A model generated the notes under the pieces. The model saw only the letters and a list, made by a program, of their open reading frames with translations, did not search any database and was not told where the DNA came from. 64,000 nucleotides of DNA from assembly GCF_000503055.1 (NCBI RefSeq), contig NZ_AYVY01000001.1, positions 235,592 to 299,591 of the forward strand, given 5' to 3'. The first letter of the stretch is position 1, and each line of letters starts with the position of its first letter. The stretch is from Mesorhizobium sp. LSHC420B00 (GTDB lineage: Bacteria > Pseudomonadota > Alphaproteobacteria > Rhizobiales > Rhizobiaceae). Position numbers and translations under genes: made by a program. This document shows positions 7,995-27,322 of the stretch, one piece after another.

Positions 7995-8118
7995 CAACCC
8001 GTGTTCGACCACTTGCTTGCTTTCAATCTGCTGTGAGCAGGAATGTGATGCGGTGCCAGCCGACGACCAGTGCCCGCAGCCGGCGACCGGCAACTTGCTT
8101 CTGCTTGGTTAACTTTTT

Positions 8119-8133: not shown

Positions 8134-8151
8134 TCGTGTCAACGGATACTA

Positions 8152-8166: not shown

Positions 8167-8180
8167 TTCAGGCAGGAGCA

Positions 8181-10324: not shown

Positions 10325-10485
10325 GGCTCTGACCTAATCCAAGGTGTCGGCGAGTCTACGCGCTTGCAGGCGATCTTTCATGTCCGAATTCCCGTGCATG
10401 TCCGATCGTTGGTGTGGGCGAAAGGCTAGGCCGAAACCGCACGGGTCGAGATTTGATAGATCATTCTTGGCTGTCAATCAGGAAC

Positions 10486-10500
10486 GGAATAATTTATTCC
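10486..10500. promoter_or_regulatory. Perfect 15-bp palindrome, probable RpiR/MurR-type operator
   Basis: GGAATAA-T-TTATTCC, a perfect inverted repeat about 40 bp before the RpiR-family gene and about 160 bp before the divergent MurA paralogue. It has the same arms and spacing as the site upstream of murQ (8152-8166). On the minus strand a TTGACA lies just beyond it (10473-10478 region), so the repeat abuts a possible promoter for the divergent genes. Confidence 0.75.
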
Positions 10501-10539
10501 TTGGCTTGGCATTGTCGATGACTGGCAACAGGGGAACGC

Positions 10540-11431: not shown

Positions 11432-12103
11432 TTAGCGGCCCAGAAGGTTGCGCTCGACTGTCTTGAGATGGGCGAGCATCGCCTGGTTGGCGCTTTCCGG
11501 GTCGCGGCGCAGCAATGCGTCCAATATTGTCTGATGCTCGTCGCAATAAACGCGCCTGCGCTCCTCCGAGAATGAGCGCTTTTTCATTTCGAACCACGGC
11601 GATTGGTTGCGGATCGTGCGCATGAGATTGTGAATCTCTTTCAGGAAGTCATTGCGGCAGCAGGCGAAGACGCAGTGATGGAACTCGGCGTCCCAATGCT
11701 CGAAGTCCGGCATGTCCTCGGCAGCGCATGCGGTCTGATGCGCTTCGCGAACCGCGTTTAGTTCCGCCATGCTGGCATTTGTGGCGGCGAAGGCCGCCGC
11801 CGCTGGCTCCAGCAACTGCCTGATCTCCATCATGTCGGCGGGGCTGGTGCCTTCCATCCGCGTGACCGTCGCCGCGATGGAATCGGGATTGGTCGCAGTC
11901 AGAAAAGTGCCGCGCCCGACATGCCGGACAACCGTTCCGTCCTCCTCCAGGAAGCCGACGGCACGACGCACCGTATTGCGCGCCACGCCAAACTCGGCCG
12001 CAAGGTCGCGCTCGGGCGGCATCCGCCCGTCCTGAAGCCACTCGCCGGCCGAAATCCGTTTTTTCAGCACAGTGGCGATGTCGTTGGCGACGAGCTTGGG
12101 CAT
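11432..12103 (-). CDS. GntR/FCD-family transcriptional regulator
   Basis: A 223-residue FadR-subfamily regulator. Winged helix at residues 5-70 (MPPERDLAAEFGVARNTVRRAVGFLEEDGTVVRHVGRGTFL), then an all-helical FCD effector domain (85-215) with the metal/ligand-binding acidic and His residues in HWDAEFHHCVFACC and the late DEHQTILDALLRRD helix. It diverges from the FAH/LivHMKGF cluster across a 195-bp gap, so it is the probable local regulator of that cluster; FCD proteins usually bind small organic acids. ATG at 12103 gives the normal length, but its ribosome site is weak and a TTG nine codons upstream could also serve. Confidence 0.88.
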   Translation of the reverse strand: MPKLVANDIATVLKKRISAGEWLQDGRMPPERDLAAEFGVARNTVRRAVGFLEEDGTVVRHVGRGTFLTATNPDSIAATVTRMEGTSPADMMEIRQLLEPAAAAFAATNASMAELNAVREAHQTACAAEDMPDFEHWDAEFHHCVFACCRNDFLKEIHNLMRTIRNQSPWFEMKKRSFSEERRRVYCDEHQTILDALLRRDPESANQAMLAHLKTVERNLLGR

Positions 12104-12298
12104 TTGTTGAGAGCTTTTAATCTGATCCAATGTTGAACCAATACTATCAGCCGGCGCCCTGCCGGTCCAGTACCTGATGAGGTCAAGGCCCGATTTACCG
12201 CGACAAGTGACGAAAACCCTCTTGCAGCCTAAACCAATCGGCGATAGCGTGTAACGAAAGAGCTTATATTGGCTCATAAAAGGTTCAGGGAGGAACGA

Positions 12299-13177
12299 AT
12301 GAAGGTCGCGACGTTTTCGATTGCAGGCGAACGTCGCGTCGGCGTTGTCGATGTCGACAATCAGTCGGTCGCCCCCTTCGATATCCCTGTTGACCAGGCG
12401 CTGTCTGGCGTGCTGGCGCTGTTGCGGCGCAACGGCGCCGGGATGCCGCGCACGCTGTCGCCGGTTCCGCTGGCGCAGGTCGAGCTCGAGGCGCCGATAC
12501 CTTTGCCTGCCCGCAACATCTTTTGCGTCGGCAAGAATTATTATGAACACGCCCACGAGTTTGCCCGCAGCGGCTTCGATTCGAGCGCCGGTGCCGGCGC
12601 CATTCCGCAACATCCGATCATTTTCTCGAAGGTCCCCGAATCGGTCGTTGCAACACATTCGAACGTGCTGATCGACCCTTCCATATCGATTGCGATCGAT
12701 TATGAGGCGGAACTGGCGGTCATTATCGGCAAGGGCGGACGCGGCATTTCGAAAGCCGAGGCTTACGATCACGTCTGGGGTTATACGATTGTCAACGACG
12801 TCACTGCCCGCGACCTGCAGGGAAAATATAGCCAATGGCTAATCGGTAAGTCGCAGGATACGTTTTGCCCGATGGGGCCATGGGCGATCACCAAGGATGA
12901 GCTCGACCTGGAAAACGCTTCGGTACGTTGTTTCGTCAATGACGACCTCCGCCAGAATTCCAAAATATCGCTGCTCATCTTCGATATTCCGACGATCATA
13001 TCGACGCTTTCGCAAGGCATCACCTTGAAGCCGGGCGACATCATCGCCACCGGCACGCCGGTCGGTGTCGGCATCGGCTTTGATCCGCCGAAATATCTCA
13101 AAGCCGGCGACATTGTGCGGGTCGAGATCGACGGCATCGGGACGCTGGAGAACCGGATCGTGGAGCGGGTGCAATGA
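12299..13177 (+). CDS. Fumarylacetoacetate hydrolase (FAH) family protein
   Basis: A 292-residue enzyme of the FAH superfamily, which uses Mg2+ to cleave C-C bonds or tautomerise or decarboxylate beta-diketo acids. NIFCVGKNYYEHAHEF, the metal-binding IDYEAELAVIIGKGG, the loop GYTIVNDVTARDLQ and the C-terminal GDIIATGTPVGVG are all present, as in 2-keto-4-pentenoate hydratase/fumarylpyruvate hydrolase-like members. GGGAGG lies 6 bases before the ATG, which fixes this start against an upstream in-frame one. First gene of the plus-strand cluster; it overlaps the next gene by ATGA. Being first and adjacent to a GntR/FCD regulator suggests a ring-cleavage or keto-acid step, substrate unknown. Confidence 0.9.
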   Translation: MKVATFSIAGERRVGVVDVDNQSVAPFDIPVDQALSGVLALLRRNGAGMPRTLSPVPLAQVELEAPIPLPARNIFCVGKNYYEHAHEFARSGFDSSAGAGAIPQHPIIFSKVPESVVATHSNVLIDPSISIAIDYEAELAVIIGKGGRGISKAEAYDHVWGYTIVNDVTARDLQGKYSQWLIGKSQDTFCPMGPWAITKDELDLENASVRCFVNDDLRQNSKISLLIFDIPTIISTLSQGITLKPGDIIATGTPVGVGIGFDPPKYLKAGDIVRVEIDGIGTLENRIVERVQ

Positions 13178-13953
13178 CGACTGTCACCGTCGGTCCGATT
13201 GTCGCGGAAGTCGCCGGCGAGGGCGAGCCGGTGGTGATGATCCACGGTCTCGGCGGAACCTCGAACATGTTCCAGCCGCAGCTGGAGGCGCTCTCGGCCT
13301 ACCGTGTCATCCGCCTCGACCTGCCTGGATCCGGCCGCTCGCCGCGGCCGCTCGATCCATTGACGATCGAGGTCATGAGCGACGCCGTCATCCGCGCCAT
13401 GGCGGGCATGGGCGTCACCCGGGCGCATTTCGTCGGCCACTCCATGGGCACGATCGTCTGTCAGTTGGTCGCAGCGATGCAGCCGTCGCTGGTCAGGTCG
13501 CTGGTTTTGTTCGGTGCTCTCGCCGAGCCAGCTGAGGCGACGCGGCAAGGCCTTGCCAACCGGGCGCGATTGGCGCGATCGGGCGGTATCGCCGACATCG
13601 CCGACCAGATCGTTGCCAATGCACTGTCGGCCCATACCAGGGAGACCTCGCCGGCCGCCGTCGCCTTCGTGCGCGAATCCATCACCAGGCAGGACCCGGA
13701 AGCCTATGCCCGCACCTGCGAAGCCCTGGCCAAGGCCACGGCTGTGGATACGCGCCGGATTTCAGCGCCGACCCTTTTGGTTACCGGCGACGCCGATACG
13801 ATCAATCCGATGAGCGTCGGCCAGGCGCTTGCCGACAGGATAAAGGGAGCGATATTCTTGTCCCTCGATCGGTGCGGACATTGGGCCACGGTGGAGTGCC
13901 CCCGCGAAAGCAGCCAAAGGCTCGCCGATTTTTTGAGACGCGTTGATAGGTGA
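13174..13953 (+). CDS. Alpha/beta-fold hydrolase
   Basis: A 259-residue hydrolase resembling 3-oxoadipate enol-lactonase (PcaD-like). HGLGGTSNMF forms the oxyanion region, the nucleophile elbow GHSMG places Ser90, the acid is in VTGDADTINP (about residue 206-215) and the base is His236 in CGHWATVE. The triad is complete. Start overlaps the FAH-family stop by 4 bp, so the two are probably translated together and act in one pathway, for example opening a lactone or ester before or after the FAH step. No signal peptide. Confidence 0.88.
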   Translation: MTTVTVGPIVAEVAGEGEPVVMIHGLGGTSNMFQPQLEALSAYRVIRLDLPGSGRSPRPLDPLTIEVMSDAVIRAMAGMGVTRAHFVGHSMGTIVCQLVAAMQPSLVRSLVLFGALAEPAEATRQGLANRARLARSGGIADIADQIVANALSAHTRETSPAAVAFVRESITRQDPEAYARTCEALAKATAVDTRRISAPTLLVTGDADTINPMSVGQALADRIKGAIFLSLDRCGHWATVECPRESSQRLADFLRRVDR

Positions 13954-14007
13954 GGATCGGAATTCGGGCGTAAAAACAGTGCGCCCGACAGTTTGGGAGG
14001 TTTTCTG

Positions 14008-15348
14008 ATGGCAGACGACGGCTGGAACGGAAACGGTTCGGGCAGCACGCTCTTTACCAATGTGCGCGTGCTCGATGCGACCGGCGAATACCCCTACACC
14101 GGCGAAGTGCTGGTTCAGGGCAACCGTATCAAGCAGATCACCAAGGGCTCGTCGCGTTTCGGCTCGCCGGCTGTGTCGTCCTCCTACAGCGGCTTGTCAG
14201 GCGGTGTCACAACGATCGACGGCATGGGCGCGACGCTGATGCCGGGCATGATCGACGCGCATCTGCATCTCTCCTGGAACAACGCGCCCGGCATCGACCC
14301 GATCCAGATGATGGAGGTGGAAGAGCACATGCTGGTCACCATGGAGATGGCCAAGCTGGTACTCGACGCCGGCTTCACTGCCGGCCGCGGCGCCGCAGCC
14401 GCCAAGCCGCGGCTCGACGTGGTGTGCAAGAAATTCATCAATCAGGGGCGTTTTCCCGGGCCGCGTTACCTCGCCGCCGGTCCCGAGATCACGACGGTCG
14501 GCGGCCTCGGCGATTCCGCGCCTTCGCACATTCCGCATGAAGGCCTCAATCTCGGCATCGTTGTCTCCGGTCCCGAGGAAATCCGCCGCACGGTGCGCCA
14601 GCTGATCAAATACGGTGTCGATTCCATCAAGCTCAATCTGTCCGGCGAAAGCATCACCGGCATGGGCGCCGAAGAAACGCCGATGTCGGAGGAAGAGGTC
14701 GCCATGGCCGCCTCCGAGGCGCGCTGCCGCAACAAGGTGCTGTCGGCGCATGCGCGCTCATCCGGCTCGGTCAAGCAATGTGTCCGCCACGGCATCCAGA
14801 ACATCTACCACGCTTCGTTTGCCGACGAGGAAGCGCTCGACATGCTCGAGGCGGCCAAGGACAAGCATTTCGTGGCCCCCGGCATCGCCTGGCTGATCAA
14901 CACCGCGCGCCATGCCGAGCAATGGGGCATCAAGCCCGGCTCGCCGCTCTCGCTCGAATATGAGCGCGAGCTCGAAATGTGCATCGAGACGATGAAAAAG
15001 ATGCATCGACGCGGCATCCGCGTCTGCATCGGCGGCGACTACGGTTTTGCCTGGACGCCGCAAGGCACCAACGCCAAGGACATCCAGACCTTCGTCGAGA
15101 TGCTTGGCTTCTCGCCGATGGAGGCAATCCAGGCCGGGACCAAATATGGCGGACAGATCATGGGGATGGCCGACGAGCTCGGCATGATCAAGGAAGGTTA
15201 TCTCGCCGATCTGCTGTTGATCGACGGCGACCCGATATCGGACGTGCGCATCCTGCAGGACAAGAACCGCATCCTCGCCATCATGAAGGACGGCAAGTTC
15301 CACAAGGCGCCGCGCTTGAATGAGCAGCGCCGCCGGCTGACCGCATGA
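14008..15348 (+). CDS. Amidohydrolase-family metal-dependent hydrolase
   Basis: A 446-residue amidohydrolase (imidazolonepropionase/dipeptidase-like branch). The composite N-terminal beta-sandwich (TLFTNVRVLDATGEYPYTGEVLVQGNRI) is followed by the metal motif DAHLHL (His85, His87) at the start of the barrel, SIKLNLSGE with a possible carboxylated Lys, HAR, and the C-terminal ADLLLIDGDPISDVRIL sandwich strand. Such enzymes open cyclic amides or cut C-N bonds. GGGAGG seven bases upstream selects the ATG at 14008 over a TTG at 13993. It overlaps livH by ATGA, tying the hydrolase to the importer: the imported ligand probably carries an amide, urea or lactam bond (inference). Confidence 0.9.
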   Translation: MADDGWNGNGSGSTLFTNVRVLDATGEYPYTGEVLVQGNRIKQITKGSSRFGSPAVSSSYSGLSGGVTTIDGMGATLMPGMIDAHLHLSWNNAPGIDPIQMMEVEEHMLVTMEMAKLVLDAGFTAGRGAAAAKPRLDVVCKKFINQGRFPGPRYLAAGPEITTVGGLGDSAPSHIPHEGLNLGIVVSGPEEIRRTVRQLIKYGVDSIKLNLSGESITGMGAEETPMSEEEVAMAASEARCRNKVLSAHARSSGSVKQCVRHGIQNIYHASFADEEALDMLEAAKDKHFVAPGIAWLINTARHAEQWGIKPGSPLSLEYERELEMCIETMKKMHRRGIRVCIGGDYGFAWTPQGTNAKDIQTFVEMLGFSPMEAIQAGTKYGGQIMGMADELGMIKEGYLADLLLIDGDPISDVRILQDKNRILAIMKDGKFHKAPRLNEQRRRLTA

Positions 15349-16424
15349 GCATTCTGGACCGGCCATCTTCGCCCGACATTTCGCGGCCTAAGACTTCGGG
15401 GCTCGAGATTTCTGGCGGCGGCATGACGCGCAGACAGGCGTGGGGTCTTTTCTGGCTCCTCGCAGCTGCCGTCATTGCATGGCTGGTCTTTGCCGTCTGG
15501 CCGGACTGGCTGAACGCCATCCTGATTTCCAAGAAGGCATTCGTCAGCGCCATCCTCAACGGCATCACCCTGGCTGGCCTTTATTTCCTGGTCGCCAGCG
15601 GCTTTACCCTGATCTTCGGCCTGATGCGCAACGTCAACCTGGCGCATGGCTCGCTCTATCTGCTTGGCGCCTATATCGGCTATGAGGTGGCGAACCGCAC
15701 CGGCTACTGGCTGCTGGGTGTCGCCGCGGGCTTCATCGTTCTGGCCCTTGTCGGCGTCGTCATGCAGATCTTCGTCTTCCGGCGACTGGAAGGCGACGAC
15801 CTTCGCCAGACCCTGGTCAGCATCGGTATCTCGATCGTCGCCGCCGACCTGATGCTGGCGGTCTGGGCCGGCGGCACCTATCAGATCCCGGTGCCGGAAT
15901 GGCTCGACGGTGCACTGACCTTACCGGTGGTCACGGCCGTGCGGTCTAACGGCGTCTCGGTGTTTCTCACCTACCCGCTTTATCGCGTCGTCGTGCTGGC
16001 GGCTGCGATCGTTATCGGCATCGGCCTTTGGCTGATGCTGCACAAGACGCGCGTCGGCATGATGGTCCGCGCCGGCGTCGACGACCGCGCCATGCTGTCG
16101 GCCTCGGGCGTCAACGTACACGCGGTCTTTGCTATCGTCTTTGCCGTCGGCGCCGGGCTTGCCGGCTTTGCCGGCGTCGTCGGCGGCTCGGCATTGTCGG
16201 TTGCGCCCGGCGAGGACGTCCGCTATCTCCTGGCCTCGCTCGTCGTCGTCATCGTCGGCGGCATGGGTTCGATTACCGGTGCTGCAATCGGCGCGCTGCT
16301 GATCGGCCTCGCCGAACAGATCGGCCTCGTCTATTTCCCGACCTACGGCATCGTGCTCACCTTCGTCATCATGGTGGTAGTGCTGTCGGTGCGGCCGCAA
16401 GGCATCATGGGGAAAGCGCGATGA
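15345..16424 (+). CDS. Branched-chain amino-acid type ABC permease (LivH)
   Basis: A 359-residue inner-membrane permease of the HAAT family. After a 40-residue cytosolic lead come about eight hydrophobic segments, with the LivH hallmark LAGLYFLVASGFTLIFGLMRNVNLAHGSLYLLGAYIGY and the cytoplasmic loop GMMVRAGVDDRAMLSASGVNVHAVFAIVFAVGAGLAGFAGVV. Length is some 50 residues above typical LivH because of the N-terminal lead; an internal ATG at 15423 would give a normal length. It is coupled by 4-bp overlaps to the amidohydrolase before and livM after. Confidence 0.92.
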   Translation: MSILDRPSSPDISRPKTSGLEISGGGMTRRQAWGLFWLLAAAVIAWLVFAVWPDWLNAILISKKAFVSAILNGITLAGLYFLVASGFTLIFGLMRNVNLAHGSLYLLGAYIGYEVANRTGYWLLGVAAGFIVLALVGVVMQIFVFRRLEGDDLRQTLVSIGISIVAADLMLAVWAGGTYQIPVPEWLDGALTLPVVTAVRSNGVSVFLTYPLYRVVVLAAAIVIGIGLWLMLHKTRVGMMVRAGVDDRAMLSASGVNVHAVFAIVFAVGAGLAGFAGVVGGSALSVAPGEDVRYLLASLVVVIVGGMGSITGAAIGALLIGLAEQIGLVYFPTYGIVLTFVIMVVVLSVRPQGIMGKAR

Positions 16425-17446
16425 GCCTGACCGTCGCCGTAGGCGCCGCGCCTCGACAGAACTGGCTGGAGAAGCTCGGCGCCGGTCACATCATCCTTGC
16501 CGTAGCATTGGTTCTCTACCCGCTGGTGGCATCCGATTTCTTCCTGACGCAGATCGGCGGTTATTCGCTGATCTTCGGCATGCTCGCACTGTCGCTGATG
16601 ATGCTGGCCGGCTATGGCGGTATGGTCAGCCTTGCCCAGATCACTGTCGCCGGCATCGCCGCCTATGCCATCGCCATCCTCGGCGAGAACAATTCGAACG
16701 TGCTCGGCCTCGGCTGGCCGTGGTGGATCGCAGCACCCTTCGCCATTCTGGCAGCTGCGGTGGCATCGGCGCTGATCGGCTGGATCTCGGTGCGCACCGA
16801 AGGCATCTACACCATCATGATCACGTTGGCGATCGCCACCGCGACCTTCTATTTCGCCCAGCAAAACTACGCGATCTTCAACGGCCATTCCGGCTATGCC
16901 GGCATTCGCGCGCCGGTGTTCTGGGGCGTCAACTGGCGCGACCCGAAGGCCTTCTATTATCTCTGCCTGGGTTCGGCGGTGCTGTCCTACGCGGGGATAC
17001 TCTACGGCGCCCGCTCGACCTTCGGCATGACCGTGCAGGCAATCCGCGACAATCCGCGTCGCATGCGCGCGCTCGGCTATCACGTCACCGCACACAAGGT
17101 CTTCGCATGGTTCCTGGCTGGAATCATTGCCGGTGTCGCAGGCGTGCTTTTGGTCTGGTTCAATGGGCGCGTTTCACCCGGCACGATCGGCGTCGATGCA
17201 GCCATCGACGTGCTGATCATCGCCGTCATCGGCGGTTTGCGCCACCCGATCGGGCCTTTTCTCGGCGCGCTCGTCGTTGTCCTGATGCAGACCTTTGCCA
17301 TCGACCTTGTCGGAGCCGAGCGTTTCAACGCGCTGATCGGGCTGGTGTTCCTGGTGATCGTCTTCATCTCGCCGGATGGAATTCTTGGGTTGTGGGGGAG
17401 GATCAGACCGCAGCTAGCTCAGGAGTCCTTGCGTTCCGGTCCGTGA
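16421..17446 (+). CDS. Branched-chain amino-acid type ABC permease (LivM)
   Basis: A 341-residue permease, with the LivM pattern LIFGMLALSLMMLAGYGGMVSLAQITVAGIAAYAIAI and the coupling loop GMTVQAIRDNPRRMRALGYHVTAHKVFAWFLAGIIAGVAGVLL, ending in VFISPDGILGLWGR. ATG at 16421 overlaps the livH stop as ATGA; the frame is open further upstream but only over livH. It forms the membrane channel with LivH. Confidence 0.93.
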   Translation: MSLTVAVGAAPRQNWLEKLGAGHIILAVALVLYPLVASDFFLTQIGGYSLIFGMLALSLMMLAGYGGMVSLAQITVAGIAAYAIAILGENNSNVLGLGWPWWIAAPFAILAAAVASALIGWISVRTEGIYTIMITLAIATATFYFAQQNYAIFNGHSGYAGIRAPVFWGVNWRDPKAFYYLCLGSAVLSYAGILYGARSTFGMTVQAIRDNPRRMRALGYHVTAHKVFAWFLAGIIAGVAGVLLVWFNGRVSPGTIGVDAAIDVLIIAVIGGLRHPIGPFLGALVVVLMQTFAIDLVGAERFNALIGLVFLVIVFISPDGILGLWGRIRPQLAQESLRSGP

Positions 17447-17492
17447 CGCCGGAGCGGAATGAACTGCATCAATCAATCAAAGGGAGGAAAAA

Positions 17493-18740
17493 ATGAGAAT
17501 ACATCGACGCACACTGCTTGCGCTGGCGCTTGCCACCGGGCTGACAGCTCCGTCTCTGGCGCTAGCCGCCGACGACACGATCAAGATCGGCCTGCTCGCC
17601 ACTTTCGAGGGACCGTTCACGGTGCTCGGCGAAGACGGCGAGCGCGGCGCGAAGACGGCGCTCGACGAGGTCAGCGGCATGGTTGCCGGCAAGAAGATCG
17701 AAATCGTCAAAGGCTCGTCCGACGCTTCACCTGATAGCGCCGTGCGCGCTGCGCGCAAGCTGGTCGAGCAGGATGGTGTCAAGGTTTTGGTCGGCCCGCT
17801 TTCGGGCGATGAGGGCCTCGCCGTCAAGGACTATGCCAAGACCCAGCCGACCGTGACCTTCATCAATGGCACCTCGGCGGCGCAGGACACGACGCTGCGC
17901 AATCCGGCGGAAAACTTCTTCCGCTTCTCGACCGACGGCGCGCAGTGGATGGCCGGTCTCGGCACTTATGCCTTCAACGACAAAGGCTACAAGCGGGTCG
18001 CTACGGTCGCCGAGGACTATTCTTTCCCGTATACGCAGGTCTTCGGCTTCATGGCCGAGTTCTGCAAGGCAGGCGGCAAGGTGCCGTCCAAATCCTGGGT
18101 GCCGATCGGCAACAAGGATTTTTCGTCGGTTATCGCGGCCATTCCCGATGACGTCGATGCAATCTACGTCGCGCTTGGCGGCGCCGACGCCGTGAACTTC
18201 CTGACCCAGTATCAGCAGGGCGGCGGCGCGGCCCCCTTGATTGGTGGCTCGATCACCGTCGACCAGACGGTGCTGACCTCGAAGGGCAAGCTGCGCGACG
18301 TGCTGGTCGGCACGCCTTCCGCCGGACCAACCGCCGACACCAACGACGCGCCTAGTTGGAAAACTTTCGTCGAAGCCTACAAGAAGCAGCCAGGTGCCTT
18401 TCCCTCGCCGTCGCTCTTCGCCCACGGCTATTACGTCAACATGAAGGCGACATTGCTCGGTCTCGAACAGGTCGGCGGCGATGTCGCCGATGGCGGCGCC
18501 AAACTGCGTGACGCACTCTCGAAACTGTCTTTCGACACGCCGACCGGCAAGGTGTCACTGGACAAGAACCGCAACGCGATTGCCGACATCTACCTGACCG
18601 AGGTGACCGAGGGGCCGGACGGCAATCTTTTGAACAAGCTCGTCAAAGTCGTGTCGCAGGTCAACCAGACGCTGGGCATTCCCGAAGACGAGTTCACCAA
18701 GCTTGGGGCTGTCAGCCGCGACAATCCGAGCTGCCCGTAA
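17493..18740 (+). CDS. Branched-chain amino-acid type ABC importer binding protein (LivK-like)
   Basis: A 415-residue periplasmic binding protein (Peripla_BP_6). Residues 1-26 form a signal peptide with a twin Arg near the start (RIHRRTLLALALATGLTAP) and an ALAAD cleavage region; the mature protein begins DDTIKIGLLATFEGPFTVLGEDGERGAKTALDEV, the family ligand-binding fold. Binding proteins of this class in rhizobia take amino acids, amides, urea, aromatic acids or purine-like compounds, so the ligand is open. GGGAGG lies upstream. Its position between permeases and ATPases is ordinary for liv-type operons. Confidence 0.9.
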   Translation: MRIHRRTLLALALATGLTAPSLALAADDTIKIGLLATFEGPFTVLGEDGERGAKTALDEVSGMVAGKKIEIVKGSSDASPDSAVRAARKLVEQDGVKVLVGPLSGDEGLAVKDYAKTQPTVTFINGTSAAQDTTLRNPAENFFRFSTDGAQWMAGLGTYAFNDKGYKRVATVAEDYSFPYTQVFGFMAEFCKAGGKVPSKSWVPIGNKDFSSVIAAIPDDVDAIYVALGGADAVNFLTQYQQGGGAAPLIGGSITVDQTVLTSKGKLRDVLVGTPSAGPTADTNDAPSWKTFVEAYKKQPGAFPSPSLFAHGYYVNMKATLLGLEQVGGDVADGGAKLRDALSKLSFDTPTGKVSLDKNRNAIADIYLTEVTEGPDGNLLNKLVKVVSQVNQTLGIPEDEFTKLGAVSRDNPSCP

Positions 18741-18767
18741 CCGCGTGGCTTGCGAGTATATCCGCCC

Positions 18768-19553
18768 GTGACCGAAACTCTTGCCGCGAACCGTCTCCAA
18801 GGCTCCGGCGCCTTTGCGCTGGAACTCGATGGCGTTGCGCGGCATTTCGGCGCTTTGGTGGCGCTCTCCGGCATTGATATGAGGATCGCGGCTGGCGAGC
18901 GGCGCGCGGTTCTCGGCTCTAACGGCGCCGGCAAGACCACGCTGTTCAATGCAGTGACCGGCGATTTCCTGCCGACGGCTGGCCGCATCCGCTTCTTCGG
19001 TGAGGACATCACCGACTTGCCGCCGCATGAACGCATCCGGCGGGGCTTGCGGCGGACCTACCAGATCTCGCAGCTGTTCAAAGGCTTGTCGGTTCTCGAC
19101 TCGATCTTTCTCGCTTGCCGCGGCGTCTCACGCCGACGGTTCTCGCTGCTCCGCCCAAAGGCCACCGACGTCAACATGGTGCAGGCGGAATCGATCCTCA
19201 ATGCCGTGCATCTCGAGGCCTATCGCGACCTGCTGGTGGCGACACTCAGCCATGGCCAGCAGCGGCAGTTGGAGATCGCGCTGGCGCTGGCCGGCGCGCC
19301 ACGCTTCATCCTGTTCGACGAGCCGGCGGCCGGCCTGTCGCCGACCGAGCGCCGCGACTTGGTGGCGATCCTCAATGCGCTGCCCAAGCATATCGGCTAT
19401 ATTATCATCGAGCACGATCTGGATGTCGCGCTGCGCGTTTCGGAATATGTGTCGATGATGCACAACGGCCGTCTGTTCAAGGAAGGCACGCCGCAAGAGA
19501 TCGAGGCCGACCCGGAGGTCCAGGAGATCTATCTCGGGGGCAAGCATGGCTGA
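18768..19553 (+). CDS. Branched-chain amino-acid type ABC ATPase (LivG)
   Basis: A 261-residue ATPase from the GTG at 18768 (a TTG at 18750 is an alternative; neither has a good ribosome site). Walker A GSNGAGKT is at 50-57, the LivG insertion FFGEDITDLPPHERIRRGLRRTYQISQLFKGLSVLDSI contains the Q-loop, the signature is LSHGQQRQLEIAL, Walker B FILFDEP and the H-loop IIIEHDLDVAL. The C-terminus ends EADPEVQEIYLGG as in other LivG proteins. Pairs with the LivF domain encoded by the next, 8-bp-overlapping gene. Confidence 0.9.
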   Translation: MTETLAANRLQGSGAFALELDGVARHFGALVALSGIDMRIAAGERRAVLGSNGAGKTTLFNAVTGDFLPTAGRIRFFGEDITDLPPHERIRRGLRRTYQISQLFKGLSVLDSIFLACRGVSRRRFSLLRPKATDVNMVQAESILNAVHLEAYRDLLVATLSHGQQRQLEIALALAGAPRFILFDEPAAGLSPTERRDLVAILNALPKHIGYIIIEHDLDVALRVSEYVSMMHNGRLFKEGTPQEIEADPEVQEIYLGGKHG

Positions 19554-21801
19554 GCGCCCCGTTCCCCTCGGCCGAACGCTCCCTTCTGGCCCAGCCTCTT
19601 CCGGCAAAATAGGCAAGGCGATCCTCAAAATAGAGGATCTGCAGGTCTATTACGGCGAAAGCCATGCCCTTCAGGGCGTCTCGCTGGCGCTGGAAAGCGG
19701 CGTGCTGTCGGTGGTCGGCCGCAACGGCATGGGCAAGTCGACGCTCTGCAACACCATCGTCGGCCTGAAGCGCGCGCGCTCCGGCTCGATCCGCGTCGAC
19801 GGCCGCGAGATCACTGCGCTCGAACCGCACGAGATCCATCGCCTCGGCGTCGGTTATGTGCCGCAAGGGCGGCGCGTCTGGCCAAGCCTGAGCGTTGATG
19901 AGCATCTCCGTCTCGCTGCCGGCAATCGGCGCGATGCGAGTTGGACCGTCGAACGCATCTACCAGACATTTCCGCGCCTCGCCGAGCGCCGCACCAATGG
20001 CGGCTCGCAGCTCTCCGGCGGCGAACAGCAGATGCTTGCTATCTCGCGTGCCCTGCTCAGCGACCCGAAGCTGCTGGTCATGGACGAGCCGACCGAAGGC
20101 CTTGCGCCGATCATTGTCGACCAGGTTGAGCGGATGCTCGTCACCCTGGCCGAGGAAGGTGAGATGGCGATCCTCGTCATCGAGCAGAATATCGGCGTGG
20201 CGACCGCTGTTTCCAACCAGGTCGCCATCATGGTCAACGGCCGCATCAATCGGCTGATGGACGCGGCAGCGCTCGCGGCAGACCGGGAATTGCAGCAACG
20301 GCTGCTTGGTGTCGGACGCCATGCCGACGAGACGTCCGTCACGCCGGCAGCCGCGGCACAGGCGAAGGACCAGTTGGCTGAAGTCTACCGCATCGACCGG
20401 ACGGCTACCGGTTCCGAACCGATGACCCAGAATGGAACCTACCTTCCGGTCACCGAACTGCCCAACCGCTGGAACGTGCCGGTCACGGCCATGCGGCAAG
20501 CGGCTATCGAGAAGGCCGCGCCACAGGACGATTTGAAGAAGGTCTTTGCAATTCCTTTCGCCGAACGCATTGGAAGAACAGTGCTCGTCGCGGGCACTTT
20601 CGATACCAAGGGCAAGGAGTTGCGGTTCGTCGCCGACCGGCTGAAGTCCCTCGGCATTCCGGTTCGCACCGTCGACCTCTCCACCTCCGGAAAACCGTCG
20701 AGCGCCGACGTTCCCGCCATGCAGGTGGCCGGAATGCATATGCGGGGATCGGCGGCCGTTTTCACCAATGATCGCGGCGGCTCGGTGAGCGCTATGGCGG
20801 AAGCCTTCGCGCGCTGGATCGAGCGCGAGCCGCGCATTGGCGGCGTCATCTCGGCCGGCGGCTCCGGCGGCACCACGCTGGCAACAGCAGGCATGCGCGT
20901 GCTGCCCGTCGGTATCCCCAAACTGATGGTGTCGACCGTGGCAGCCGGCGATGTCGCCAAATATGTCGGCGGCGCGGACATCATGATGTTCCATTCGGTT
21001 GCCGACGTTCAGGGGCTGAACTCGATCACCGAACAGGTGCTGTCAAATGCGGCGCATGCGATGGCGGGCATGGTCGCGCAGCTGCCCAATGCCGAAGCCT
21101 GGGAAGCCAGGCGCAAGCTGGCGCGCCCGGCTGTCGGCATCACCATGTTCGGTGTCACGACGCCGGCGGTGCAGGCGGTAACCAGGCGGCTCGAAGCCGA
21201 CTACGACTGTCTCGTGTTCCACGCGACCGGCATCGGCGGACGGGCAATGGAGAACCTCGGCGATTCGCGGCTGCTCTCGGCTTTCCTTGATCTGACTACC
21301 ACGGAGGTGGCCGACATGATCGTCGGCGGTGTGTTCCCGGCGACTGAAGATCGCTTTGGCGCCGCAATCCGCACCGGCTTGCCCTATGTCGGCTCAACCG
21401 GCGCGCTGGACATGGTCAATTTCGGCCCGCGCGACAGCGTGCCGGAGAAATTTCGAAGCCGCAAATTCGTCATCCACAATCCGAACGTCACGCTGATGCG
21501 GACAACCCGCGACGAGAACCGCGCCTTCGGCGAATGGATCGGTGCGCGGCTCAATGCCATGAATGGCCCGGTGCGGTTCCTGTTGCCGGAGGGCGGTGTC
21601 TCGATGCTCGATGCATCGGGCCAACCATTTCATGATCCGGAAGCCGACAGCGCCCTGTTCGAGGCGATCGAGAAGACCGTTCGCCAGACGCCGCAGCGCC
21701 ATCTCGAGCGTGTGGGTGCGAACATCAATGACGCGCTCTTCGTCGATGCAGCGGTCAATGCGTTCCGCGCGATCACACCGAAACTGCAGAGGCGAGCATA
21801 A
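19546..21801 (+). CDS. LivF ATPase fused to a Tm-1-like (UPF0261) domain
   Basis: One 751-residue chain. Residues about 26-265 are a complete LivF ATPase: Walker A GRNGMGKS at 58-65, LSGGEQQMLAISRALL, LLVMDEPTEGLAP, IVIEQN. A linker follows, and residues about 343-751 are a Tm-1-like ATP-binding protein: GRTVLVAGTFDTKGKELRFVADRLKSLG, VISAGGSGGTTLATAGMRVLPVGIPKLMVST, FGVTTPAVQAV, VFHATGIGGRAMENL and a C-terminal LPEGGVSMLD block. Tm-1-like proteins are usually stand-alone; the plant member binds tobamovirus replicase, while the bacterial role is unknown. Reading frame and codon use are continuous across the join. The fusion suggests the Tm-1 domain acts on, or is controlled by, the imported ligand. 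Confidence 0.92.
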   Translation: MAERPVPLGRTLPSGPASSGKIGKAILKIEDLQVYYGESHALQGVSLALESGVLSVVGRNGMGKSTLCNTIVGLKRARSGSIRVDGREITALEPHEIHRLGVGYVPQGRRVWPSLSVDEHLRLAAGNRRDASWTVERIYQTFPRLAERRTNGGSQLSGGEQQMLAISRALLSDPKLLVMDEPTEGLAPIIVDQVERMLVTLAEEGEMAILVIEQNIGVATAVSNQVAIMVNGRINRLMDAAALAADRELQQRLLGVGRHADETSVTPAAAAQAKDQLAEVYRIDRTATGSEPMTQNGTYLPVTELPNRWNVPVTAMRQAAIEKAAPQDDLKKVFAIPFAERIGRTVLVAGTFDTKGKELRFVADRLKSLGIPVRTVDLSTSGKPSSADVPAMQVAGMHMRGSAAVFTNDRGGSVSAMAEAFARWIEREPRIGGVISAGGSGGTTLATAGMRVLPVGIPKLMVSTVAAGDVAKYVGGADIMMFHSVADVQGLNSITEQVLSNAAHAMAGMVAQLPNAEAWEARRKLARPAVGITMFGVTTPAVQAVTRRLEADYDCLVFHATGIGGRAMENLGDSRLLSAFLDLTTTEVADMIVGGVFPATEDRFGAAIRTGLPYVGSTGALDMVNFGPRDSVPEKFRSRKFVIHNPNVTLMRTTRDENRAFGEWIGARLNAMNGPVRFLLPEGGVSMLDASGQPFHDPEADSALFEAIEKTVRQTPQRHLERVGANINDALFVDAAVNAFRAITPKLQRRA

Positions 21802-21880
21802 TGGCTTCGAGCAGGCGCATTTGTAAAATCGGTGCCGGTAGCCTGTGGCTGACCGCATTCTATTTGGGAGGGTAGAAAAG

Positions 21881-24067
21881 ATGGCCGCGCAGACCTTGGG
21901 TGCTTTCCTTTTGTGGCTGATCATTGCCGCGATCGTGGTGGTGATCGCCGTCTACATACTGCGATGGCTTTATCGCCGGTCGACCAAAGAGACGGCGTTC
22001 GTGCGCACCGGCTTCATGGGCGAGAAGGTGGTGGTAAACGGCGGCGCTTTCGTCATTCCGGTGCTGCACGAGATCACGCCGGTCAACATGAACGTCCTGC
22101 GCATCGAAGTGCGCCGCGAGGATGCCTTTGCGCTGATCACCAAGAACCGCATGCGCGTTGATCTGGTCGCAGAGTTCTTCGTCCGTGTCGGCGCCGGCCG
22201 CGAGCTGGTCGCAGCCGCCGCCCAGACGCTCGGCCGCCGCACGCTGCAGCCCGACAGCCTGCGCGAATTGCTGGAGGGCAAATTCGCCGGTGCCATGCGC
22301 ACCGTTGCCGCCCAGATGACGCTGGAAGAGATGCACGAGCTGCGCGGCGACTATGCGGCCAGGGTCCGGCAGCTTGCCTCGGAATCGCTCGCCGCCAACG
22401 GGCTGGAGCTGGAGAGCGTCGCCATCGTCGACCTCGACCAGACCAGCCTCGAATATTTCGATCCGTCCAATGCCTTCGACGCCGAAGGCCTCACCCAACT
22501 GACGGAATCGATCGAGACGCGCCGCAGGATGCGCAACGAGATCGAGCAGCGCACGCTGGTCGACATCCGCAACCAGAACCTCGACACCCAGCGCAAGGTG
22601 CTGGAGATCGACCGCGACACCGAATACGCCCGCCTCGAGCAGGAGCGCGAGGTCGAGATACGTCGCGCCTCGCAGCGCTCCGAACTCGCCAGGGAGCGGG
22701 CGATCCGCGACCAGGAGGCCGAGCAGGCGCAACTGTCGGCGCGCGAGGCCGTCGAGAAATCGCGCCTCAACCAGGAGCGCAACATTACCGAGGAGCGCAT
22801 CAAGAGCGAGGAAGACACGCAGCGCCGCGAGATTGCGCGCCGCCGCGCCCTCGATGAGACGGAAATGAAAATGCGCGAACTGACCGAGCGCGAGCAGATC
22901 GCGCTAGAGCTCGCCCTGGAAAAGGCCAGGATCGAACGCGAAGGCACGCAGAGCGAGCTCGAGATCGAGCGCAGGAAAGCCCTCGAAATCGCCGAGCTCG
23001 AACGCCAGATCGCGCTGGCGGAAAAGGCATTGGAGGTTACCAGGGCCGAGGCGGAAAAGCGCCGCGCCGAAATTGTCGAGAACCAGGCGACCGAAACAGC
23101 GCGGATCGGGCAGGAGCGTGCCATCGACGAGGTCAGGATTGCACGCGAGCGTCACCTCGAGGCGCTGCAGATCGCCAAGCGCCAGGCTTTCGAGGAAGCC
23201 GAAATATCGGCCGGCGAAGAGGTCGAGCGCGCTCGCATCACCACCGAGCGCGGCATCGAGGAGGCGCGGCTGATCAAGGACCGCGACATCCGCCAGCTCG
23301 GCGTCGAGCGCGACCAGAAGATCGAGATAGCCGAAATCCAGAAGGCCATCGACATCGCCAAAAAGACGCAGGAGCGTTCCTCCGCTATCGCGGCATCCGA
23401 GGCGGTGCGCGCCAAGGCCATCCAGGCTGAGGAGCAGGCCTTCACGGCGCGCGAGCGCGAGATCGCCGAGCGCCGCAAGCTGACCGACTTGATCGGTGCG
23501 GCTCGCGAGGCCGAGCGCGAGGCCTTGCGCATAACCGCGGCCGCAGATGCCGAGATGAAGGCGGCCAAGAGCCTGGCCGAAGCGCAGAAGATCGCCGCTG
23601 TTGCCGCGGCCGAGGCGGAGAAGATCCACGCCCTTGCGGCGGCCCAGCGCTACGAGGTTGATGCCGCCGGCCATCGTCAGCTCAACGAGGCCGACAATCT
23701 GCTCTCCAACGAGGCTCGTGCCGGTCGCCTGCGCGGCAAGTTGCTCGACCACATGGAAGGCATCATCCGCGAAAGCGTCAAGCCGATGGAGAAAATCGAC
23801 GGCATCAAGATCCTGCACGTCGACGGCATCAATGGCGGGCAGGGCGGCAACCGCAACGTCACCGACGAGGTGATCGATTCGGCGCTGCGCTACCGGGTCC
23901 AGGCGCCGATGATCGATAATCTGATGAAGGAGATCGGCATCGAGGGCGGCTCGCTCGGCCGCATGACCGACGTGCTGCGCGATGCCAAGGACATATCGAG
24001 CCTGACCCGCGACAAGAAAGGCAAAGGCAAGGTCAGCAAGGACGACGATGACGACCGCGACCGCTGA
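21881..24067 (+). CDS. Long flotillin/SPFH-domain membrane scaffold protein
   Basis: A 728-residue membrane-anchored protein. One transmembrane helix (residues about 6-28, LGAFLLWLIIAAIVVVIAVYIL) precedes an SPFH domain (about 40-200: TGFMGEKVVVNGGAFVIPVLHEITPVNMNVLRIEV) and then about 400 residues of charged Arg/Glu-rich coiled coil with repeated ERxIE, EIAE and EARLIK units. The tail carries flotillin-like KIDGIKILHVDGINGG and an acidic KDDDDD end. Bacterial flotillins and YqiK are usually near 500-550 residues, so the coiled coil is unusually long. GGGAGGG nine bases upstream selects ATG 21881 over an earlier in-frame ATG at 21845. No NfeD partner gene is adjacent. Confidence 0.92.
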   Translation: MAAQTLGAFLLWLIIAAIVVVIAVYILRWLYRRSTKETAFVRTGFMGEKVVVNGGAFVIPVLHEITPVNMNVLRIEVRREDAFALITKNRMRVDLVAEFFVRVGAGRELVAAAAQTLGRRTLQPDSLRELLEGKFAGAMRTVAAQMTLEEMHELRGDYAARVRQLASESLAANGLELESVAIVDLDQTSLEYFDPSNAFDAEGLTQLTESIETRRRMRNEIEQRTLVDIRNQNLDTQRKVLEIDRDTEYARLEQEREVEIRRASQRSELARERAIRDQEAEQAQLSAREAVEKSRLNQERNITEERIKSEEDTQRREIARRRALDETEMKMRELTEREQIALELALEKARIEREGTQSELEIERRKALEIAELERQIALAEKALEVTRAEAEKRRAEIVENQATETARIGQERAIDEVRIARERHLEALQIAKRQAFEEAEISAGEEVERARITTERGIEEARLIKDRDIRQLGVERDQKIEIAEIQKAIDIAKKTQERSSAIAASEAVRAKAIQAEEQAFTAREREIAERRKLTDLIGAAREAEREALRITAAADAEMKAAKSLAEAQKIAAVAAAEAEKIHALAAAQRYEVDAAGHRQLNEADNLLSNEARAGRLRGKLLDHMEGIIRESVKPMEKIDGIKILHVDGINGGQGGNRNVTDEVIDSALRYRVQAPMIDNLMKEIGIEGGSLGRMTDVLRDAKDISSLTRDKKGKGKVSKDDDDDRDR

Positions 24068-24148
24068 CCAGGTCCGGTGGGCGGTGTGCTGTGCGAATGA
24101 GTGGCGATGCCTCGGCACCGGCCGCTCGTTCGATGCGGGCGGTGGGGC

Positions 24149-24586
24149 ATGACCAAGGTCTATGTGTCCTCGGTCATCCCTGCGCCGGCTGCGGAAGTCT
24201 GGAAGCTCGTGCGCAACTTCAACGGCCTTCCCGCCTGGGCGCCATTCGTTGCGGAGAGCCGCGTCGAACAGAACGCACCGGCCGACCAGATCGGCTGCAT
24301 CCGCAACTTTGTGCTCAGGGATGGCGGGCGGATTCGCGAAAAATTGCTGGCACTGTCCGACTACGATCTGTCGTGCAGTTACGCTATCCTGGAAAGCCCG
24401 ATGGCGGTGGAGAATTATATCGCCACGCTGTCGCTGACGCCGATCACCGACGGCAATCTCACTCTGGCCGAATGGGAGGCGGAGTTCGACTGTGCGCCTG
24501 AGCGCGAAGCAGCACTTATGCATCAGATCGGCACCGGCGTCTTCCAGGCGGCGTTGAGCGCACTCAAGCAGCGCTTCGGGCGCTGA
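24149..24586 (+). CDS. Small SRPBCC-family protein (polyketide cyclase/START-like)
   Basis: A 145-residue helix-grip protein with a hydrophobic ligand pocket. MTKVYVSSVIPAPAAEVWKLVRNFNGLPAWAPFV is the family opening and the C-terminal amphipathic helix is present. It resembles the N-terminal domain of the next gene closely (both have LLALSD, a YxxLExP stretch and TDGN), so the two look like a tandem duplication. GGTGGGG just before the ATG at 24149 favours this start over the in-frame ATG at 24101. Role unknown; such proteins bind lipids, polyketides or aromatic intermediates. Confidence 0.85.
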   Translation: MTKVYVSSVIPAPAAEVWKLVRNFNGLPAWAPFVAESRVEQNAPADQIGCIRNFVLRDGGRIREKLLALSDYDLSCSYAILESPMAVENYIATLSLTPITDGNLTLAEWEAEFDCAPEREAALMHQIGTGVFQAALSALKQRFGR

Positions 24587-24596
24587 CATTCCCGCG

Positions 24597-26114
24597 ATGG
24601 TTCAAGTCCGCCAGAGCACCATCATCGATGCGCCGATCGATGATGTCTGGTCGATTCTGCGCGATTTCAACGGCCATGAACGCTGGCACCCGGCGATCTC
24701 GTTCAGCGAAATCGAAGGTGGCGACCCGGTCGACGCGGTCGGTTCGGTTCGTCGTTTCCGCCTGGCCGATGGCGGCGAGTTGCGCGAACAGCTGCTGGCG
24801 CTGTCCGACAAGGACTTTCGGCTCGCCTATTGCCTGCTCGAAGCGCCGCTGCCGCTGATGGGTTATGTCGCATCGATCCAGCTGAAGCCGGTGACCGACG
24901 GCAACGCGACCTTCTGGGAATGGCGTTCCGAATTCCATCCACCTACGCACCGCCGCGACGAACTGGTCAAGCTCGTCTCCGAAGGCATTTATCAGGCCGG
25001 CTTCGCGGCGATCCGTAGCCTTTTGCGAGGAAGGGTTCTGACTGCCAAGGCAAGAGCGCCGACGCCGGCACCTCCGTCAGCCCCGCCGCTGATCCCTTCG
25101 CCGGTCTCTTCCGCAACAACATCGTTCGGCCAGTCAGCAACAACCAGGGCTATTGTGGTCGAGCGCTATGGCGGTCCGGAGGTGCTGCAACTCAAGGAGA
25201 TCGGCTTGCCGCCGCCGGCGCCGAACGAGGTGCGGATCCGCCATACTGTGATCGGCGTCAACTTCATCGATGTCTATTGCCGCACCGGCTATTTCGACCT
25301 TTTGCAACCACCGGGCGTGCCTGGCATGGAGGCGGCCGGCGTCGTCGAAGCGGTCGGTTCGGAGATTGCCGGTTTCTCGGTCGGCGACCGCATCGCCTAT
25401 GCCTGCCCGCCGGTCGGCGCTTATACCGAGCGGCGCAACATGGTGCCCGATCTGCTGGTTCGCCTGTCCGACGATATTCCCGACGAGATTGCGGCCGCGG
25501 GGCTGCTCAAGGGCATCAGTGCGAGTTTTTTGCTGCATGATATCCATGCGGTGCAGCCGGGCTCCGTCGTTCTCGTCCATGCCGGCGCCGGCGGCATCGG
25601 CCAGCTTCTGGTGCAATGGGCACGCCATCTCGGCGCAACGGTCATTGCAACGGTGTCGAGCGACGACAAGGCGCGCATCGTCGAACGCCTCGGTGCCCAT
25701 CATGTCATCGTCTACTCGCGTGAGAATTTCACTGAGGCCGTCATGCGGCTGACGGGAGGCGTCGGCGCCGATGTGGTCTACGATGCGGTCGGCCAGGATA
25801 CGTTCGGCGGCTCGCTGGCGGCGCTCCGCATTCGCGGTCACCTCGTCAGTTTCGGTCAGGCGTCAGGGCCGATCGGCAATTGGGACATCGGCCGCTTTGC
25901 ATCGAAGTCGATCACCGTATCGCGTCCCAACTATGCGCATTACACCGACACGCCGGAAAAACTAGCCCCGCACGTCGAGCGTTTCTTTGCCGCGCTGCGA
26001 CAGGGCGTCGTCAGGATCGAAGCGCCCAAGCGCTATAACCTATCCGACGCCGGCGAGGCTCACCGCGACCTTGAGGCCAGGCGGACAACAGGCGCATTGG
26101 TGCTGGTGCCGTAG
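24597..26114 (+). CDS. SRPBCC domain fused to a zeta-crystallin-type quinone oxidoreductase
   Basis: A 505-residue two-domain protein. Residues 1-145 are an SRPBCC domain paralogous to the preceding gene product. Residues about 150-180 are a Pro/Ala/Ser-rich linker. Residues about 182-505 are a complete medium-chain reductase of the quinone oxidoreductase class: RAIVVERYGGPEVLQLKEIGLPPPAPNEVRIRHTVIGVNFID, GMEAAGVVEAVGSEI, the NADPH-binding VHAGAGGIGQLLVQWAR, and no zinc-ligand set. It should reduce a quinone or enone with NADPH, possibly presented by the SRPBCC domain. Last gene of the cluster; only a 10-bp gap separates it from the small SRPBCC gene. Confidence 0.9.
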   Translation: MVQVRQSTIIDAPIDDVWSILRDFNGHERWHPAISFSEIEGGDPVDAVGSVRRFRLADGGELREQLLALSDKDFRLAYCLLEAPLPLMGYVASIQLKPVTDGNATFWEWRSEFHPPTHRRDELVKLVSEGIYQAGFAAIRSLLRGRVLTAKARAPTPAPPSAPPLIPSPVSSATTSFGQSATTRAIVVERYGGPEVLQLKEIGLPPPAPNEVRIRHTVIGVNFIDVYCRTGYFDLLQPPGVPGMEAAGVVEAVGSEIAGFSVGDRIAYACPPVGAYTERRNMVPDLLVRLSDDIPDEIAAAGLLKGISASFLLHDIHAVQPGSVVLVHAGAGGIGQLLVQWARHLGATVIATVSSDDKARIVERLGAHHVIVYSRENFTEAVMRLTGGVGADVVYDAVGQDTFGGSLAALRIRGHLVSFGQASGPIGNWDIGRFASKSITVSRPNYAHYTDTPEKLAPHVERFFAALRQGVVRIEAPKRYNLSDAGEAHRDLEARRTTGALVLVP

Positions 26115-27310: not shown

Positions 27311-27322
27311 AAGCGAGATGAT

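Follow-up and report, generated by a model that had tools for sequence, protein, structure and literature searches.

An importer ATPase fused to a Tm-1 domain is linked with flotillin and SRPBCC genes in a conserved gene cluster of Mesorhizobium and its relatives

The window, as we call the whole 64,000-nucleotide stretch of Mesorhizobium sp. LSHC420B00 analysed here, comes from a Mesorhizobium-like genome of 7.05 Mb and carries, between positions 12299 and 26114, eleven tightly packed plus-strand genes in the order FAH, alpha/beta hydrolase, amidohydrolase, LivH, LivM, LivK, LivG, LivF::Tm-1, flotillin, SRPBCC1 and SRPBCC2 fused to a quinone oxidoreductase (QOR), with intergenic spacings of -8 to +81 bases and four overlapping junctions. 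In this cluster and its relatives, a Liv-type importer whose LivF ATPase is joined to a Tm-1 (UPF0261) domain is accompanied by a flotillin and two START-like SRPBCC proteins. Moreover, a fused LivF again stands with a flotillin in a second system, where an unrelated enzyme is attached; this goes beyond an earlier, sequence-only reading of this DNA. That reading had listed ten genes, two domain fusions among them; every named gene matches Pfam above the cut-off at its position, with overlapping junctions, and the count becomes eleven. The cluster is thus real, conserved and wider than first noted, and the mechanism set out below is a prediction from sequence.

The best 80 of 281 loci with relatives of the fusion were kept for comparison, of which four (L014, L031, L052 and L064) end too early and 76 have at least 4 kb downstream. 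In all 76, locus L049 included, a flotillin and two SRPBCC genes lie downstream of LivF::Tm-1 on the same strand. Since the 80 loci had been picked by the fusion, two genome samples drawn blind to flotillin were added, with open frames in the genome searches running from stop to stop. Among 190 genomes of the class, 25 UPF0261 matches comprised 10 fusions (frames of at least 768 residues) and 15 shorter proteins; a Flot match was found at a distance of 2.0-4.6 kb, in the same orientation, for 10/10 fusions, and within 10 kb for 1/15 of the shorter ones, that one inside a fusion-bearing cluster. A phylum sample of 398 genomes gave 14 fusions by frame length, and the 11 that were new all had flotillin, SRPBCC1 and SRPBCC2. 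In contrast, a fetched subset of 27 loci with unfused Tm-1, used as controls, had flotillin in none. Three loci have a Liv importer beside an unfused Tm-1 and no flotillin (L082 of Thermomicrobium, L084 of Bradyrhizobium and L135 of genome G001), which indicates that fusion and flotillin go together. The co-occurrence of flotillin, SRPBCC and QOR genes with the importer, on which the sequence-only reading depended, is therefore borne out. In a quick Tm-1 tree, made without bootstrap, all fusions fall in one clade (98 in the Shimodaira-Hasegawa-like approximate likelihood ratio test, SH-aLRT); nine rows labelled as unfused in this tree are halves of fused loci cut at fetch boundaries, and another is L049. 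The latter locus, from Mesorhizobium sp. AR07, has LivF and Tm-1 in two frames, which probably reflects a frameshift or a genuine split.

The cluster exists in two versions with interchangeable enzyme sets. Among the 80 loci, 52 are of type A and 25 of type B, with none of these 77 being both, and 3 are cut off. All versions share a core of Liv importer, LivF::Tm-1, flotillin and two SRPBCC proteins. Type A, to which the window belongs, adds the FAH, hydrolase and amidohydrolase set and the SRPBCC2::QOR fusion, as far as the contig reaches, this fusion having an identical domain set in all 120 protein clusters among the matches listed. In type B, SRPBCC2 is a gene of its own preceding a molybdenum hydroxylase made of four genes, with MoxR and CoxE-like VWA genes downstream and mostly an AraC regulator; longer stretches also have Amidohydro_2 and SGL-isochorismatase genes. 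Among solved structures, the type-B molybdenum subunit is closest to the split nicotinate dehydrogenase 3hrd. The LivK proteins of 11 type-B loci are 51-59% identical to that of the window, so that the ligands of both types are probably related. Flotillin frames measure 562-767 residues in 54 type-A loci (728 residues, the length in the window, in 16 of them) and 801-1477 residues in 36 type-B loci, and the coiled coil is therefore highly variable. In the Tm-1 tree, the main type-A clade (SH-aLRT 99) and the type-B clade (95) are recovered, and the type-A loci with the partner gene described below form a grade. Two single loci are worth recording: L071, titled Oceanobacillus sp. HTM 045 (Bacillota), has a type-B cluster that groups among alphaproteobacteria, through transfer or a mislabelled assembly, and L094 (G122:C82) has, at about 6259-10000 on the opposite strand beside a type-A cluster, a separate molybdenum-hydroxylase set with an unsplit large subunit.

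In the fusion protein, the ABC domain extends to about residue 250 and is followed by a variable linker, of about 90-113 residues, and by UPF0261 at residues 345-743. The Tm-1 assignment covers both UPF0261 halves, with 563 bits to NCBIfam NF002673 (cut-off 520) and 317 bits to the solved Tm-1 protein 3wry. Many public records, such as P0245 and its relatives, label this ATPase fusion 'ABC transporter permease', which is a misnaming. A PEP_hydrolase-like gene, encoding a TIM barrel, is found at 44 of the 80 loci, that is, about half (25/25 of type B, 17/52 of type A and 2/3 of those cut off), and sits between Tm-1 and flotillin wherever positions were inspected; Mesorhizobium loci do without it, two of M. 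soli excepted. Such a gene is also present in the fetched stretch of 18 of the 27 unfused Tm-1 controls, most of which lack a Liv importer on their strand. Neighbourhoods of free-standing Tm-1 and PEP-hydrolase genes (20 proteins scanned) showed mixed contexts and gave no substrate lead. In this regard, the available part of PMC5028733 describes a plant Tm-1L protein that likewise has both UPF0261 halves; there Tm-1 is fused to the TIM barrel, whereas here it is fused to LivF. As a side observation, locus L100 (G079:C77:1426-1950) is a second, divergent Tm-1 with PEP_hydrolase-like genes, within a cluster that holds a LivF::Tm-1 fusion.

The flotillin of the window has the Band_7/SPFH domain and a C-terminal Flot domain, both over the Pfam cut-offs (56 and 118.7 bits). 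Identity with FloT proper was rejected, NCBIfam FlotScfldFlot reaching 47.5 bits with a cut-off of 700. Flotillin-YqiJ/YuaF pairs, as described in the accessible part of PMC11237479, share the same architecture of Band_7, coiled coil and Flot; the window protein differs in its longer coiled coil, and no YqiJ/NfeD-like, PspA or AAA-chaperone partner was found among 16 window proteins scanned, both flotillin neighbours included. Contexts were then compared for 68 alphaproteobacterial matches to one query flotillin (E <= 1e-30) in 385 genomes of the class, where related genomes are not independent. Of these, 18 lie in LivF::Tm-1 clusters, 11 directly before LivK-LivH-LivM-LivG-LivF and 3 after a tailed LivF, so that a Liv-type importer is the partner at 32/68, with its ATPase fused to Tm-1 or to an amidase in 28/32. 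The remaining ones comprise 23 with a YqiJ/OB-fold gene, 6 SPFH genes with an ABC ATPase and 7 with none of these, although the YqiJ label relies on blastp to one or two probes and the 7 may hide some.

Of the 11 loci with flotillin before LivK, 10 have an amidase joined to LivF and the remaining one, in G185, breaks off in LivF at the contig end; an acyl-CoA synthetase gene follows the fusion in 9 of the 10 (Pfam check on three loci). In the reverse direction, 42 matches to LivF::amidase at E <= 1e-180 in the 385 genomes included 10 that span both domains, which are exactly the 10 flotillin loci, and 0/32 amidase-only matches have a flotillin row within 90 kb on their contig. The scoring took two candidates from each genome, and one amidase-only match, on contig C124 of G185, may supply the lost half of the fusion that a contig end interrupts in that genome. 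Six genomes, picked for carrying such systems, gave 82 LivF-type matches: frames of at least 600 residues are in flotillin operons in 8/8 cases, in comparison with 1/74 of the others, the tailed LivF of G567; on C60 of G646, some 5 kb separate a short LivF from a flotillin encoded on the opposite strand. LivF::amidase proteins are common, with both domains in all 120 protein clusters among the matches listed. The tails of the tailed LivF proteins are of low complexity and span 166-192 residues in three measured cases, among which L187 comes from a Neorhizobium plasmid; a short-chain dehydrogenase/reductase (SDR) gene occurs at these loci in three G genomes and was not seen in L187. At loci L222-L227, an SPFH protein of 937-938 residues (852 in L227) stands beside an ABC ATPase of 363-370 residues; L222, the only one of the six scanned, also has hydantoinase A/B, FAD oxidoreductase and enolase-superfamily genes.

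In a tree of 79 SPFH domains, the flotillins of LivF::Tm-1 clusters form one clade (100/99, including three unassigned rows) surrounded by YqiJ-partnered ones, and the amidase (100/100) and tailed-LivF (100/95) groups form another (99/93), adjoining two YqiJ-partnered plasmid flotillins. The ABC domains of the Tm-1 and amidase fusions are 39-40% identical, with linkers and fused domains showing no match of note. The separate clades and the unlike fused domains make it most likely that flotillin was recruited to a Liv operon with extended LivF at least twice. Both systems combine a Liv importer, an enzyme on the C-terminus of LivF and a flotillin in the operon, and they differ in flotillin clade, in the unrelated fused enzyme, in the position of flotillin (before LivK in the amidase system rather than after LivF) and in the lack of an SRPBCC match in the amidase operons.

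The importer of the window is of the Liv/HAAT type, comprising one Peripla_BP_6 solute-binding protein, a pair of BPD_transp_2 permeases and two ATPases whose motifs are intact. Its complete subunit set is that of the Liv and Urt importers (LivKHMGF, UrtABCDE), with the difference that LivF bears a 400-residue Tm-1 domain and that flotillin and SRPBCC genes stand in the operon. A urea or branched-chain amino acid importer was rejected, as none of the subunits reaches its Liv or Urt equivalog cut-off (for example UrtE 224.7/285.8, LivF 167.7/441, UrtB 160.6/250.3 and LivH 85.2/379 bits). The LivK model is closest to 4zpj and then to seven solute-binding-protein chains, mostly titled R. palustris and several with 4-hydroxybenzoate, a weak hint from modelled folds that the ligand may be an aromatic acid. 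The alpha/beta hydrolase misses the cut-off for a PcaD enol-lactonase (TIGR02427, 153 of 256 bits), and the amidohydrolase that for an Xaa-Pro dipeptidase (NF051886, 214 of 500 bits), with its metal ligands present; solved relatives of the latter include Cc2672, a prolidase and an ochratoxinase, and the FAH enzyme is closest to 8sky. The sequence-only reading had proposed a ligand with amide or lactone bonds degraded to a keto acid, which fits the type-A hydrolases, but none of these reaches an equivalog cut-off and type B keeps the core without this hydrolase set. Altogether, the evidence points weakly to an aromatic acid or amide as substrate. The SRPBCC proteins match only Polyketide_cyc2/cyc in Pfam. 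Abscisic acid was not adopted as a ligand from the PYR/PYL fold match of SRPBCC1, a common fold being no proof of function.

Because an enzyme-fused LivF paired with a flotillin recurs, also with a different enzyme, uptake and breakdown are predicted to be held in one membrane assembly. The membrane-associated uptake and degradation system proposed by the sequence-only reading remains the best account of the cluster, and we judge it probable, with ample room for error, that a flotillin scaffold holds together one assembly in which LivF is fused to Tm-1 and START-like proteins pass on a hydrophobic, likely aromatic-type substrate. In such an assembly, LivK, LivHM and LivG/LivF, whose families are clear, would import the ligand; the Tm-1 domain, tethered to LivF by the fusion, would either act on the substrate or use ATP to gate the importer; and flotillin oligomers, linked to the importer by gene order, would bring importer and enzymes into contact. 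SRPBCC1 and SRPBCC2 may bind a poorly soluble intermediate and hand the substrate to the hydrolases and to the fused quinone-reductase-type enzyme, and cleavage of amide, ester or lactone, and C-C bonds would fall to the amidohydrolase, alpha/beta hydrolase and FAH enzyme. As SRPBCC2 is joined to QOR in type A or lies beside the molybdenum hydroxylase in type B, it would couple a redox enzyme to the membrane. A similar role is thought to be played by CoxG, an SRPBCC protein that would bring CO dehydrogenase to the membrane, according to the accessible part of PMC4240915. The likeness extends to an SRPBCC gene next to a redox enzyme and, in type B, even to CoxD/CoxE-like MoxR and VWA genes; the differences are that SRPBCC here matches Polyketide_cyc2, with XoxI-like and PYR/PYL proteins as nearest solved folds, and that the type-B large subunit is closest to split nicotinate dehydrogenase rather than to CO dehydrogenase.

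In Staphylococcus aureus, the FloA gene lies apart from the importer genes. According to the available part of PMC10147376, FloA is needed for heme-dependent growth and binds IsdF, an ABC permease, which provides a precedent for an importer permease that touches and depends on a flotillin. In that case, FloA is a general scaffold and the ATPase FhuC is shared and separate, whereas the window has its flotillin gene inside the operon and a fused ATPase; the cluster would work in a similar way without being a member of that system. The parts of the cluster are known and their combination is a new variant; it would amount to a new class of metabolon if the complex is shown. We rate at somewhat below an even chance the broader proposal of a new class of transport metabolon, in which an importer ATPase covalently joined to an enzyme (Tm-1, an amidase and perhaps others) needs a dedicated flotillin and the substrate passes from permease to first enzyme within a flotillin-bounded patch, evolved at least twice from YqiJ-type flotillins.

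Among other explanations, the one that survives best is an ordinary importer-plus-catabolism operon in which flotillin and SRPBCC are co-regulated neighbours, for instance protecting the membrane against a toxic aromatic, and form no complex with the importer. Stress genes are frequent in catabolic operons, and the quinone reductase and START-like proteins could detoxify. We nevertheless hold it to be unlikely, since flotillin is tied to the LivF fusion itself, being absent from all 27 fetched unfused Tm-1 controls, among them L135 with its similar Liv importer, as it is from L082 and L084, and since the link between flotillin and fusion recurs with LivF::amidase. Less probable still is that Tm-1 is a regulatory module sensing ATP or a metabolite and gating the importer by trans-inhibition, with catalysis left to other enzymes. 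C-terminal regulatory domains are known on importer ATPases such as MalK and MetN, and the catabolic sets change while Tm-1 stays. The plant TIM-barrel partner domain has, moreover, been proposed to act in signal transduction (PMC5028733, in the part available). On the other hand, Tm-1 is a separate gene in the 27 controls, 18 of them with the PEP-hydrolase-like gene and most without a same-strand Liv importer, and the LivF-fused domain of the parallel system belongs to a clear enzyme family, the amidases. An envelope-stress or defence island, with flotillin, START-like proteins and Tm-1 protecting the membrane beside an incidental importer, is highly improbable: Band-7/flotillin proteins have been tied to envelope stress systems and tomato Tm-1 inhibits a virus (PMC11237479 and PMC5028733, respectively, as far as their available parts go), but the scanned window proteins include none of the partners named above, a type-A or type-B catabolic set is present at 77/80 loci, the other 3 being cut short, and the local GntR control has the only perfect operator of the genome.

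Several observations weigh against the flotillin-scaffolded assembly that we prefer. Gene linkage by itself is no demonstration of the physical complex, which, like the activity of Tm-1 and the substrate, we infer. We know of no enzymatic activity for Tm-1/UPF0261, and the domain may be regulatory rather than catalytic; its PEP-hydrolase-like partner is absent at the window locus, the sole match in the genome being on contig C36, next to an unfused Tm-1. Among the unfused, flotillin-free Tm-1 loci, 3/27 have SRPBCC genes as well, one unfused locus without flotillin (L129) falls inside the fusion clade, and 7/68 flotillins have no partner recognised by the probes used. LivK is only 22-28% identical to aromatic-acid binders, and the type-A set has no ring-opening oxygenase. 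By sequence and fold, SRPBCC1 comes closest to XoxI-like proteins, to unnamed bacterial proteins and to the PYR/PYL receptors of plants rather than to CoxG; the latter, which neither sequence nor fold singles out, was found neither in 50 VIA-align entries, nor in 50 Foldseek rows (among the matches listed), nor by name in the PDB sequence list.

No published description of this system was found in searches of open-licence PMC articles; there, no article was found with both 'flotillin' and 'SRPBCC', none among those listed with the phrase 'Tm-1-like ATP-binding', and none of the five mentioning 'UPF0261' concerns bacterial importers by title or abstract start. The scaffolding targets of bacterial flotillins are disputed, with conflicting reports cited in the available part of PMC8656257. 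YqiJ, their common genomic partner, says little on this point. The pairing with a Liv importer offers a clean test system for membrane microdomains in metabolism and gives a genomic setting to the unexplained Tm-1/UPF0261 family, which serves tomato as a defence against a virus; it also points to candidate new routes for the breakdown of aromatics or amides in rhizobia and roseobacters. If the proposal is true, bacterial flotillins would gain a second main job beside envelope repair, and UPF0261/Tm-1 its first metabolic context.

The divergent GntR/FCD regulator of the sequence-only reading is present, together with a conserved, predicted double operator. When the GntR-FAH intergenic region of the window is aligned with those of 36 relatives whose FAH is at least 78% identical (37 regions in all), two conserved boxes appear, one close to each of the two genes and both built as direct repeats with TGANCCAAT-like halves. 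The first is the only 0-mismatch site of the genome, where 24 sites with up to 3 mismatches were found in comparison with 8 for a reversed control pattern; sites on contigs C28 and C63 have 2 mismatches each, equal to the second local operator. Within the window, 2 matches were found with 0.35 expected, a number reached in 3/100 shuffles. The paired conserved boxes and the sole perfect match being local lead us to predict a local, autoregulated control, in which GntR would repress both promoters through the paired operators.

The limits of the cluster were set by comparing 39 type-A loci with enough flank. With a threshold of more than 60% identity, 30 of them retain GntR, 38 FAH, 30 QOR and 39 SRPBCC1, in contrast with the flanking genes, RpiR upstream (0/39), PsuG downstream (0/39) and PfkB (1/39, about 5 kb off). 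The conserved unit is therefore the block from GntR to SRPBCC::QOR, its plus-strand genes likely forming a single operon, and PfkB and PsuG are ruled out as members. Promoter and terminator scans gave counts no higher than in shuffles. The flotillin probably starts at ATG 21881, behind GGGAGG, rather than at GTG 21845. In the window and in most relatives, the enzymes and both ATPases retain their motifs; the minimum, 41/49, concerns the alpha/beta hydrolase and its GHSxG-type serine motif.

Table 1. Features of the window and operons of related systems (pLDDT, predicted local distance difference test; loci are given as handle:positions, minus strand where marked).
Feature	Position	Strand	Evidence
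GntR/FCD regulator, divergent	11432..12103	-	Pfam FCD 88.9 bits, GntR 58 bits; start ATG at 12103
Predicted operator 1, direct repeat TGATCCAAT-GT-TGAACCAAT	12123..12142	+	conserved across 37 aligned intergenic regions
Predicted operator 2, before FAH gene, 2 mismatches	12268..12287	-	same alignment and window scan
FAH-family hydrolase/decarboxylase, type-A module	12299..13177	+	FAA_hydrolase 233 bits; metal and catalytic motifs present
Alpha/beta hydrolase, PcaD/RutD-like but under their cut-offs	13174..13953	+	Abhydrolase_1; GHSMG, D, H present
Amidohydrolase, prolidase / arginine-carboxypeptidase / ochratoxinase group	14008..15348	+	Amidohydro_1; HxH, K, H, H, D present
LivH-type permease	15345..16424	+	BPD_transp_2 113 bits
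LivM-type permease	16421..17446	+	BPD_transp_2 130 bits
LivK-type solute-binding protein	17493..18740	+	Peripla_BP_6 201 bits; model pLDDT 85
LivG-type ATPase, start uncertain	18750..19553	+	ABC_tran; Walker A, signature, Walker B, H-loop present
LivF::Tm-1 (UPF0261) fusion	19546..21801	+	ABC_tran, UPF0261_N and UPF0261_C, single frame
Flotillin, long coiled coil, 728 residues	21881..24067	+	Band_7 56 bits, Flot 118.7 bits
SRPBCC/START-like protein 1	24149..24586	+	Polyketide_cyc2 94 bits; model pLDDT 93.7
SRPBCC2::quinone-oxidoreductase fusion, type-A module	24597..26114	+	Polyketide_cyc2 and zinc-type alcohol dehydrogenase
Flotillin-LivK-LivH-LivM-LivG-LivF::amidase operons	L180:414-10255; L182:5666-15460 (-); L184:5154-14932 (-); L189-L193, L197, L198		
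Tailed-LivF Liv importer, aldehyde dehydrogenase and flotillin	L187:3173-11482; L194; L195:11654-16827 (-); L196; L209; L210		

Just upstream of the cluster, the window has at 8181-11388 what we take from the translations to be sugar-kinase-like, MurA-like and RpiR-type genes. Directly downstream of the cluster, at 26201-28252, lies an HTH-PfkB kinase and Indigoidine_A/PsuG-type pair, presumably for pseudouridine breakdown. Farther away, a flavin mononucleotide (FMN) riboswitch (RF00050, 119.7 bits) is found at 53890-54035 on the minus strand.

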